Shown here: one piece after another, positions 6,853 through 9,771 of the stretch | Numbering within the stretch: position 1 is the stretch's first letter | Layout: each line of letters opens with the position of its first letter | Origin: a virus | Length of the DNA: 39,555 nucleotides | Virus record (IMG/VR): IMGVR_UViG_3300022751_000029 | Coordinates: 1-39,555 of that record | Reading direction: 5' to 3' (one strand) | Made by a program: the position numbers and the translations under genes | The notes under the pieces: model-generated | Told to the model about the DNA's origin: nothing | Seen by the model: the letters and a program-made list of their open reading frames with translations, nothing else | Database searches by the model: none

Positions 6853-7065
6853 ATGACCTACAACAAAAATACACTCACATTTACGAACAGCAAGCTAGAC
6901 AACTTCGTCATCCGTGACGGTGAACACTACGTCCAGAGCGACTACAAGGCCGTGGAACGGGCGATGCGCTTGGAAGCGATTAGATACATCACTCGTAAGT
7001 CATTAAGACACCTCGCGGCTTCATTTGAGTCCACAAAGACCAAGCTCGACCAGTACGGCCTGTAG
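6853..7065 (+). CDS. Leaderless 70-residue protein of unknown function
   Basis: The first rightward gene after the divergent promoter region. The product starts MTYNKNTLTFTNSKLDNFVIRDG, then a basic helical half (ERAMRLEAIRYITRKSLRHLAASF). The promoter leaves no room for a ribosome-binding site. Position suggests an early or regulatory protein; no recognised domain. Confidence 0.7.
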   Translation: MTYNKNTLTFTNSKLDNFVIRDGEHYVQSDYKAVERAMRLEAIRYITRKSLRHLAASFESTKTKLDQYGL

Positions 7066-7071
7066 TACTAT

Positions 7072-7146
7072 ATGGGTATGCAAACCGACATCACTTGGGA
7101 AGTAGAGGGCTGTACCTGCTGCGGTATAATAACCAGCGGAACTTAA
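7072..7146 (+). CDS. Possible 24-residue microprotein
   Basis: A short frame MGMQTDITWEVEGCTCCGIITSGT directly after the leaderless gene, with a CTCC metal-site-like cluster. There is no Shine-Dalgarno site. It may simply be part of the following structured region. Confidence 0.25.
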   Translation: MGMQTDITWEVEGCTCCGIITSGT

Positions 7147-7480
7147 TATGTGCTACGCGCGACCGGCCCGGATTTATCCGTGACTCATCGGGATTCAGCG
7201 ACCCTATCGCAAGGAATCCCTCAGCGCAGTCGGCTATTTCATCGTCATTCTTGGTGAACCCTGTCGATATCATTAGTCGGCGTTCCACCCCAGCCGTCAT
7301 GGGTAGCCGAGATCAGGTTGATACCTCTCTCCCCACGTAGGCAGTAAAACCGAACGTATGTAGGTGAACCTCATGCCACCGAGACGTGTGACAGCTGGGA
7401 CTATGTTAGAATCAAATTAGTCGCTTGCCATGTGTAGGATGACTTCTTAACCCGTCACCCACCTGGCGGGTTTTGTATTT
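7125..7480 (+). ncRNA. Candidate structured RNA of about 0.3-0.35 kb
   Basis: A TATAAT at 7125-7130 (no clear -35) precedes a stretch without convincing genes. It has strong helices: GGGATTC/GAATCCC (7190-7196 with 7214-7220) enclosing GCGA/TCGC; TCGGCTA/TAGCCGA (7230-7236 with 7304-7310); and GACTA/TAGTC (7399-7403 with 7418-7422). A proper intrinsic terminator closes it at 7449-7480. It does not show the conserved cores of RNase P RNA or tmRNA. It could instead be the 3' region of the leaderless gene's mRNA. Confidence 0.35.
7449..7480 (+). terminator. Intrinsic terminator
   Basis: A 9-bp stem AACCCGTCA (7449-7457) / TGGCGGGTT (7464-7472), containing one T-G pair, with a 6-nt loop, followed by a T-rich tail. 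It ends the rightward unit from the 6817 promoter. Confidence 0.8.
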
Positions 7481-7523
7481 ATCCACAACCATTTTCATGA
7501 TGTCAGAGATATGGTTATCCCCA
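7479..7523 (+). promoter_or_regulatory. DnaA box pair, possible origin
   Basis: A perfect TTATCCACA at 7479-7487 and a near match TTATCCCCA at 7515-7523, just after a terminator and before a strong promoter. Together with the box at 6803 they suggest a DnaA-dependent replication origin near 6.8-7.6 kb. Confidence 0.4.
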
Positions 7524-7550
7524 GTTCCATACACAGGCTGAAAACTCAGG

Positions 7551-7591
7551 TTGATGCTGATTTATAACTGACGTATACTACTTATAACTGA
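7551..7591 (+). promoter_or_regulatory. Strong promoter of the giant RNA with flanking direct repeats
   Basis: TTGATG (7551-7556), 17-bp spacer, TATACT (7574-7579); start expected near 7586. Two identical TTATAACTGA repeats (7562-7571 and 7582-7591), 20 bp apart, bracket the -10 on the same helix face, as expected of a regulator-binding site. Confidence 0.65.
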
Positions 7592-7654
7592 AAGGTCTCT
7601 CAACGCTGATAGTCCGAGTAGGGGGTATAAGAATCTTTTAAGGGTATTAGAAAA

Positions 7655-7670
7655 CCCCCATTTCTGGGGG
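7655..7670 (+). other. GC hairpin near the 5' end of the giant RNA
   Basis: CCCCCA-TTTC-TGGGGG, a perfect 6-bp tetraloop hairpin. The GGGGG at 7621-7625 could pair with the same CCCCC, so two alternative folds exist. There is no T-run on this strand; on the opposite strand it would be followed by TTTT. Confidence 0.5.
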
Positions 7671-8136
7671 CTGGTCTCTTAACGCTACTCATATTTTAGC
7701 ACATTTATTTCTTATGCAAATAGTACATTACTTTTCGAGACTACCTTTTGTGGGTATAACCCTGGCTCTGATAATACGACCCCTAAGTGTAGATTACGTT
7801 TTTAGATAATCCGTAACCTACTGTACGTCAACCAGGTCAGTTGCTGAGGAGATAACGGGAATCGGATTCCTTGAGCTCGGGTTGGCCACCCTCTGTCTTC
7901 TCAGCAATGCTCATAAAGATGCCACCTCAATCGTATGTAGGCCTTAATCAATTGTTACTTGTCTGCTTCATAAACCAAGCAAGGCAAAGGGGGTCTAATG
8001 GTCTCTGAACACAGAAATAGGTGTGCAAAACATACGCAGATTGCAGTTGATATAAACGTACACTGCGCGTACACTATAAGCAGAGTTAACTGATACCTGA
8101 CAGATGACTACGGTCACAGGCGAGCTACTCTAAATC

Positions 8137-8240
8137 GGGAAGTTGGCGGAGTGGCTAAACGCTAGTCTTAGTTAGTCTCTCGAGTGGGCTAAGATACCAA
8201 TACTCGGGCGACCATCAGTTCGAATCTGATACTTTCCACC
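8137..8240 (+). tRNA. tRNA-like element (class II shape), non-canonical anticodon arm
   Basis: A clear tRNA frame. Acceptor GGGAAGT (8137-8143) pairs with ACTTTCC (8231-8237). D arm GCG/CGC has an 11-nt GG-containing loop (8146-8162). T arm ATCAG-TTCGAAT-CTGAT (8214-8230) directly abuts the acceptor, and the end is A-CC. Between the D and T arms there are 51 nt, too many for a normal Leu/Ser tRNA. TCTTAG/CTAAGA (8166-8171, 8189-8194) closes a 17-nt loop instead of 7, or CTCGAGT/ACTCGGG (8179-8185, 8202-8208) forms an alternative arm. No confident anticodon can be given. It may be a decayed tRNA, an interrupted tRNA or a tRNA-mimic domain of the giant RNA. Confidence 0.55.
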
Positions 8241-9096
8241 GTGTAGTAGTGAGACGGTAAATTAATCAGCGAACAGTTCGACAGGTAATGCTGGGACTGC
8301 ACTACTGTCGTTTCACTCTACCAATGAACATTTACAACTCGTATCGGAATAGCTGGTAGTAATTACCGTAATAAGTGGCTGGTCGTCCTCCTAGGAGTGA
8401 TAAACGCCTTATTACGTAAAGTAAGTCTTTGGATAAGCGTTTGCTACTGGCTACCCCGATACGAGCACCACTTGGAGTGCAGCTGTGACAATCAGGTACG
8501 TCCGTACAATAGGTGTCGTTAAATGCCAGATTGACATCCTGGGTGGATGGTAACGAAGCATCCCTGATTGTCTACCTGCACTTCATAGCACCTTTAGAGC
8601 GTAGTAGTGCTGGTAGTAAGTGTCTCGCATTGGGCGACCTCTCAAAAAGGTAAGTTCTCCTGAGCATGAGAGTCAGAAACTGCTAACTAGTCCTAACGGG
8701 AATGACGTCAGTAAATGAAACCACTGAGAAGACAGGTGGTGGATACCGTAAAGAGAGACTGCTTCATTGCTACTAGCACCATACGCTTTAACGCACCTTT
8801 ATCAGTCAAAGAGATTAGAGCGCATTGTGGACGGCTAGTTGCAATGGAGAGGCCAAAACCCAGGGCTTACGTCACGCAAGTGGCAACAAGTACAGGTGGA
8901 GGGTCGGTAGGGAGTAATTCTCCCCAAAAAGGTTTACTCGAGAGGTAGATTACCACGCACAAAGGGGCAACCACGGAGAGAGAGCAAAGCTCTCCACTAC
9001 GCGCTTTAATCCATTAGAGCCACACCGATCGGACTAGCTCGCTTTTAAATCGGTGGTTCGTAAGTAAGTTAATATCAGGAAAGGGGAGCACTCAGC

Positions 9097-9771
9097 ATGA
9101 AAATTCTAAACCTCTATGCTGGCATCGGCGGCAACCGCAAACTATGGGGTGATGAGCATGAAGTGTGGGCTGTTGAAAACGATTACGATATAGCGATGGC
9201 ATATAAAAAGCTGTACCCAAATGACGTTATCCTTATTGAAGATGCACATCAGTATCTATTGGACTTCTACCATAACTTCGACTTTATTTGGAGCAGCCCA
9301 CCATGCCCATCGCATTCACGCATGAGAACATCGCTGATTAAGAGTAAGCCTATGTACCCCGATATGAATCTATATGAGGAGATTATATTTCTAAATGAGT
9401 TCTTTAAGGGTAATTGGGTAGTGGAGAACGTCATACCATACTATAAACCACTGATCACACCCATAGCAGAATTAGACCGTCATCTATTTTGGAGCAACAG
9501 ACATATCGGTAAGTTTGATGGCGGCAGGAATTATAAAGGGCGAGTAACTGACCAAACTAAAGAAGCGCTCGCGGAATCACATGGCATTCAATTACCAGAG
9601 GGTACGAAGAACCAGCGTAAGCTACTAAGAAACGCAGTAGACCCATTACTTGGCTTGCATGTCTTAGAAGCTGTCGGGCAAGTAAATAGTGGTACGGTTC
9701 GGGCGAACACTGAGCTATTTGGCGAGCTAGCCAAGAGCCCAACCAACAACATAAGGGGGGAGATAAGATGA
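9097..9771 (+). CDS. C5 cytosine-specific DNA methyltransferase
   Basis: 224 residues, short for the family. Motif I is NLYAGIGGN (SAM binding), the catalytic PPC lies in SSPPCPSHSRMR (motif IV) and ENV (motif VI) is in GNWVVENVIPYY. The family's target-recognition domain is much reduced, and a motif X-like GLHVLEAVGQ lies near the end. It should methylate cytosine at C5, probably to protect phage DNA. It has a good ribosome site (GGAAAGGGGAG) and directly follows the structured RNA region. Together with the adenine methylase at 3152 the phage carries two kinds of modification. Confidence 0.85.
   Translation: MKILNLYAGIGGNRKLWGDEHEVWAVENDYDIAMAYKKLYPNDVILIEDAHQYLLDFYHNFDFIWSSPPCPSHSRMRTSLIKSKPMYPDMNLYEEIIFLNEFFKGNWVVENVIPYYKPLITPIAELDRHLFWSNRHIGKFDGGRNYKGRVTDQTKEALAESHGIQLPEGTKNQRKLLRNAVDPLLGLHVLEAVGQVNSGTVRANTELFGELAKSPTNNIRGEIR

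Follow-up and report, generated by a model that had tools for sequence, protein, structure and literature searches.

A viral RNA array of stem-closed units built around a recurrent covarying motif with exchangeable inserts

The window analysed here, 39,555 bases long, is a virus record from IMG/VR and carries, at about 8083–9060, a modular structured RNA of approximately 1,000 bases in which tandem units, each closed by a stem, are separated by short linkers. Transcription of this region is predicted from the sequence. One of the units, U3, is an instance of an RNA motif (motif 1) for which no known family gave a match and which was identified in some 35 contigs of viruses or prophages, counting the window and a prophage-bearing MAG (L091). 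The stems are kept and their contents are not, and the region is therefore better described as an array of clamps with inserts than as a single fixed fold. The array runs from a tRNA-like element through U1, U2, U3 and U4 to a last hairpin, with the following features:

8047–8075, plus strand: sigma-70-type promoter pattern TTGATA-17-TACACT; the transcript would start near 8083
8137–8238, plus strand: tRNA-like element with a 7-bp acceptor (GGGAAGU/ACUUUCC) and a Leu/Ser-type D arm
8248–8317, plus strand: 12-bp stem 8248–8259/8306–8317, 3' of the tRNA-like element, seen in a single sequence only
8338–8465, plus strand: U1, with outer stem 8338–8347/8456–8465, inner stem 8350–8362/8441–8453 and insert 8363–8440
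8473–8585, plus strand: U2, with outer stem 8473–8482/8576–8585 and a 10-bp stem (8487–8496/8563–8572) inside
8594–8791, plus strand: U3, motif 1, with outer stem 8594–8603/8782–8791; strongly covarying
8604–8606 and 8780–8781, plus strand: asymmetric internal loop of U3, GUA/CA
8607–8619/8767–8779, plus strand: inner stem of U3, 13 bp, GUGCUGGUAGUAA/UUGCUACUAGCAC
8620–8766, plus strand: insert of U3
8813–9011, plus strand: U4, with outer stem 8813–8823/9001–9011 (GATTAGAGCGC/GCGCTTTAATC) and a non-coding insert
9023–9055, plus strand: closing hairpin 9023–9029/9049–9055, with a conserved left flank

A preliminary description of this DNA had proposed a giant structured RNA of about 1.5 kb (7586–9060), led into by a strong promoter and free of credible genes. 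The structure is real, but its size is nearer 1 kb. Against dinucleotide shuffles, folding of 8240–9060 gave z = −5.4, while the stretch 7586–8080 was not exceptional (−1.8), compared with −1.1 for 7066–7585 and −0.6 to +1.9 for five coding controls. Since the structured, conserved part begins near 8081, the earlier estimate was about 0.5 kb too long. Folding by part gave z = −4.0 for 8081–8590 and −1.9 for 8591–9060, so that the 3' half is unexceptional by energy alone and its evidence is covariation. A promoter pattern does exist at 7551–7579; promoter-like matches in the region are, however, not above chance (5 vs 3.3 expected). Among them, only the pattern at 8047–8075 has a counterpart in L023, the contig whose RNA is most closely related to that of the window; L023 reads TTGACT-17-TATTCT at the equivalent place, and homology between the two regions begins at 8074. 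The absence of credible genes holds, as no ORF of at least 60 aa was found in 7341–8714. A protein-coding reading of 8715–8948 (a 77-aa ORF) was rejected, with no Pfam match and no counterpart in L023. A canonical U-run terminator was not found at the closing hairpin, 9023–9055. Upstream, 7066–8046 is a stretch of about 1 kb with low coding potential and ordinary folding; three similar words, GGTCTCTNAAC, lie near 7594, 7673 and 8001, and a hairpin resembling a terminator occupies 7449–7472.

Motif 1 was reached through the adjacent methyltransferase gene, for which a protein search returned eight contigs. In two of these, short collinear blocks are identical or nearly identical to window positions 8594–8620 and 8767–8791, which are the two strands of one stem. 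Scanning viral contigs with GTAGTGCTGGTAGTAA yielded 76 stretches, about 30 of them with both strands, and scanning with the second strand of the stem yielded further ones. A covariance model built from the arms (R1) failed to bridge the long inserts, and paired position weight matrices with shuffled controls were therefore used. This paired-profile scan across all loci gave zero matches in shuffled sequence and identified 8594–8791 of the window as a motif 1 member and a top-scoring instance (82.5). A few contigs (L013, L052, L105) hold two copies. A wider inner-stem pattern revealed no new full motif and one divergent copy in an already known motif contig. Among genomes, nine matched the motif pattern, with both arms present only in L091; two further matches in the phylum of L091 are attributable to chance. 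At the sensitivity of these scans, motif 1 was absent from the collections of annotated phages and plasmids, and it has no Rfam match. Outside the human-microbiome catalogue of PMC8040213, which lists thousands of RNA candidates, the literature searched contained nothing describing the motif.

The structure of motif 1 is supported by covariation. Its outer stem of about 10 bp varies between AAGCG/CGCTT, GACTG/CAGTC, GAGCC/GGCTC, GATGG/CCATT and other pairings, while the inner stem is nearly invariant and includes two conserved G.U wobbles. Standard pairs fill 99.0% of the pair cells in an alignment of 31 sequences (90.7 in shuffles), double-sided changes occur in 60 cells (13.9 ± 4.5 in shuffles) and nine pairs change on both sides. 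None of 500 shuffles attained the observed values, and slid structures were only 20–58% paired. Most of this signal comes from the outer stem. Six of the 13 inner-stem pairs never vary and are thus uninformative either way; inner-stem changes, compensated or pair-preserving, were observed in L102, L115 and L100, outside the alignment. The two conserved wobbles together with the asymmetric internal loop argue for an RNA rather than a DNA palindrome.

The preliminary description proposed testing for covariation in related contigs, and between related phages the helices that close the units do change in a compensated way. In U1, the inner stem of U3 recurs as a second, divergent copy, with a paired-profile score of 24.0, where five shuffled windows reached no more than 13.9. 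In L023 its outer stem is identical, while four pairs of the inner stem are changed and all four still pair. Similarly, 4 of the 10 outer pairs of U2 are changed in L023, all still pairing, around different content. The long arms listed earlier (8338–8359/8444–8465 and 8487–8496/8563–8572) are complementary as claimed, and the 10-bp stem within U2 lies in content that differs in L023. A proposed pseudoknot, 8402–8407 with 8437–8442, is likewise complementary and sits in an insert that differs in L023. The suggested long-range pairing 8682–8690/8835–8842 is bulged and would connect the U3 insert with that of a different unit, U4; neither this pairing nor the pseudoknot found support. Between the same U4 flanks, L023 carries a 95-aa ORF instead of the non-coding insert, and a 34-nt block (9006–9039) is conserved with that contig. 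Overall, the two RNAs have in common the linkers, the outer stems of U1–U3 and the flank of the last hairpin; their inserts are different, and 8133–8314, including the tRNA-like unit, is absent from L023.

Across contigs, the inner stem of motif 1 encloses inserts of 29–227 nt with no common sequence, which are non-coding, tRNA-like (as in L042) or a small ORF. Their folding is barely beyond that of shuffles (mean z = −0.6, n = 37). Motif 1 occurs alone or in varying unit orders and numbers (L007/L020, L073, L100, L013). In L013, L096 and L105, most flanking blocks are 93–97% identical and several inserts are unalignable, while L025 and L035 have one insert in common between different outer stems. 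This wholesale replacement of inserts within conserved stems suggests strong selection for diversity, which would add something new to what is known of RNA-based biology in phages. Self-targeting antisense inserts were considered and rejected, since the longest complementary stretches (9.55) equal the shuffled expectation (9.57). As separate observations, comparison of L013 with L096 revealed entire inserts swapped at several successive units within surrounding DNA that is 93–95% identical, and in two contigs (L069:7655–7938 and L091:1588–1890) the clamp encloses a small ORF of about 63–64 aa with its own ribosome-binding site, an arrangement that would place an mRNA segment in a closed loop.

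The tRNA-like element noticed in the preliminary description is recognised by the Rfam tRNA model (RF00005, acceptor, D and T arms) at 34.8 bits, above the cut-off of 29, but ARAGORN calls no tRNA at 8137–8238. The match was obtained with permissive filters; fast filters missed it. Its T arm is ordinary and perfect and it has no CCA. At the anticodon position, a 17-nt loop, whose CUCGAGU can pair with ACUCGGG, occurs in place of a 7-nt loop with a callable anticodon. We also observed a second, apparently undescribed RNA module, with a tRNA-Leu-like D arm, a variable stretch replacing the anticodon arm, no CCA, and an inserted hairpin that splits the T loop (GGGUGACUAUACGAGU...CUCGKCAAAUCCC). 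This module was found in 59 stretches of viral contigs (e.g., L051:2065–2325 and L146:6425–6700), sometimes followed by a U-run, and its acceptor stem covaries fully over 36 modules. It had no match in known phages, gave two weak chance-level matches in plasmids and was not found in the phylum of L091. The window carries only the version of the tRNA-like unit with a plain T loop. Beside motif 1, tRNA-Leu-like modules with covarying acceptor stems are present in L051, L061, L074, L096 and L105. Furthermore, in L042, L051 and L141 the tRNA-like core is set directly on a motif-1-type inner stem, which serves as its acceptor, so that motif 1 and the second module are part of one modular repertoire. 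In L105 (contig 2877079323_000003), the clamp motif and the split-T-loop module both lie in a segment that is duplicated in tandem, the period being about 2.75 kb.

To our knowledge, very few large structured phage RNAs have been described, none with an established function. Parallels may be drawn with several known systems. In RNase III substrates such as rRNA stalks and the T7 R sites, a long stem with an internal loop joins the ends of an arbitrary product, and the clamp described here is also a long stem with an internal loop around arbitrary content; RNase III, however, does not need a nearly invariant primary sequence such as that of the motif 1 inner stem. YrlA RNAs, which are Y RNA-like, combine a protein-binding stem with an internal loop and a tRNA-like module, a combination also observed here, but no such Rfam match was obtained and only some units are tRNA-like. 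The preliminary description had raised a large ornate RNA of the GOLLD or ROOL kind, or a new class. A large multi-domain structured RNA is supported; by the covariance-model test it is neither GOLLD nor ROOL, as Rfam searches of 7060–9100, both at the gathering threshold and at E up to 10, returned neither family. Among all other Rfam families, only the tRNA-like element and sub-threshold chance matches were obtained, and microRNA matches reflect chance similarity of perfect hairpins. GOLLD shares with the present RNA a phage or prophage origin, large size, extensive structure, tRNAs near or inside it (sometimes phage tRNAs in a linker region) and a variable beside a conserved part (PMC12286853). 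In GOLLD, conservation lies in one 3' domain, whereas here it lies in a portable clamp. A homo-oligomeric RNA nanocage is a further mark of GOLLD. ROOL is likewise a large phage-associated RNA with long nested helices (PMC12286853), but no sign of a single multi-stem core was seen here.

Our best guess for function, offered tentatively, is that a protein may recognise motif 1 as a clamp through which exchangeable cargo is bound or processed. The internal loop of U3 and the near-invariant inner stem would be what a dedicated nuclease or RNA-binding protein recognises. The clamp would join both ends of an arbitrary insert, and the unit would be kept as a closed domain within a long phage transcript, or cut out of it and stabilised. 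Inserts, whether non-coding, tRNA-like or a small ORF, would represent the exchangeable cargo, and tRNA-like units could let some of it engage tRNA-binding host factors. Conservation of the clamp around arbitrary cargo makes most sense if it is the clamp that functions and is recognised by protein, holding the cargo or releasing it. This reading is favoured by the covarying clamp, the unconserved and weakly structured inserts, the ORF or tRNA-like cargo and a strand shared with most of the genes that follow (56.4 of 64.5 kb of downstream ORF). Against it, no gene is common to most motif contigs (loci of up to about 14 kb), and strong primary-sequence conservation is equally expected of a cis-acting leader. 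Also against it, processing sites are usually near the ends of their product, whereas the stem here extends outward into a second covarying stem.

Such a leader, read by polymerase or ribosome during transcription (antitermination like that of HK022 put, or a 5'-end protector), is a rather unlikely alternative. It would account for the orientation shared with downstream genes and for several contigs in which an RBS-bearing ORF starts 14–60 nt past motif 1 and a promoter pattern lies 150–600 nt before it. The motif is nevertheless often found mid-operon, with upstream ORFs on the same strand (46.8 of 61.8 kb), and ORFs enclosed by the clamp and long multi-unit arrays are ill-suited to a minimal signal. 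A trans-acting ornate RNA in the manner of GOLLD or ROOL, with a fixed stem core that self-assembles or scaffolds, a variable periphery and a tRNA in a linker, appears unlikely; phage origin, a size of about 1 kb, strong folding and the tRNA-like element (recalling the linker tRNAs of GOLLD, PMC12286853) agree with it, but a fixed assembly would hardly tolerate varying unit order and number and inserts swapped wholesale, and neither family was matched. The tRNA-like element, the tRNA-Leu-like modules beside motif 1 and the inner stems that act as acceptors would also fit an array of tRNA mimics serving as a decoy for host enzymes that bind tRNA or for defence nucleases that cut it. We consider this improbable, since most motif 1 inserts are without a D or T arm and the window has one tRNA-like unit, which L023 lacks at that place. 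Least probable by far is that the stems are only the inverted repeats of a mobile or invertible DNA cassette, with no RNA involved. Conserved inverted repeats around unrelated contents do resemble cassette ends, and one insert recurs in L025 and L035 within outer stems that differ, but the consistent orientation, asymmetric arms and loop, conserved G.U pairs and outer-stem covariation speak against a DNA element, and no recombinase near the motif is common to most motif contigs.

Extending the clamp reading, it is conceivable, and on balance doubtful, that a portable RNA clamp, recognised by a specific protein, serves phages as a universal holder of RNA or mRNA cargo that is exchanged rapidly. 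Strings of units would then form kilobase-scale RNAs, and the contents of these would diversify much faster than other parts of the genome. If so, the units would resemble interchangeable cartridges in a fixed rack. The motif is compact and recognisable by sequence in about 35 contigs, and can thus be searched for, deleted or used as bait for a protein partner.

Regarding hosts and neighbouring genes, motif 1 in L091 adjoins an RsmD-like host gene; the genome concerned measures 1.1 Mb and is labelled Chloroflexi, and the sample of that phylum consists mostly of 0.5–1.5 Mb genomes. These features suggest a Patescibacteria-type host for the L091 prophage and say nothing fixed on the host of the window. 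In the window, a short (224 aa) C5 cytosine methyltransferase-like gene lies directly 3' of the RNA (9097–9771) and has 56% identical relatives in Gordonia phages. Four other contigs (L002, L048, L052, L073) have in common a small membrane-protein gene 3' of the motif; about 500 nt beyond this gene, several contigs carry a lytic transglycosylase-like ORF.
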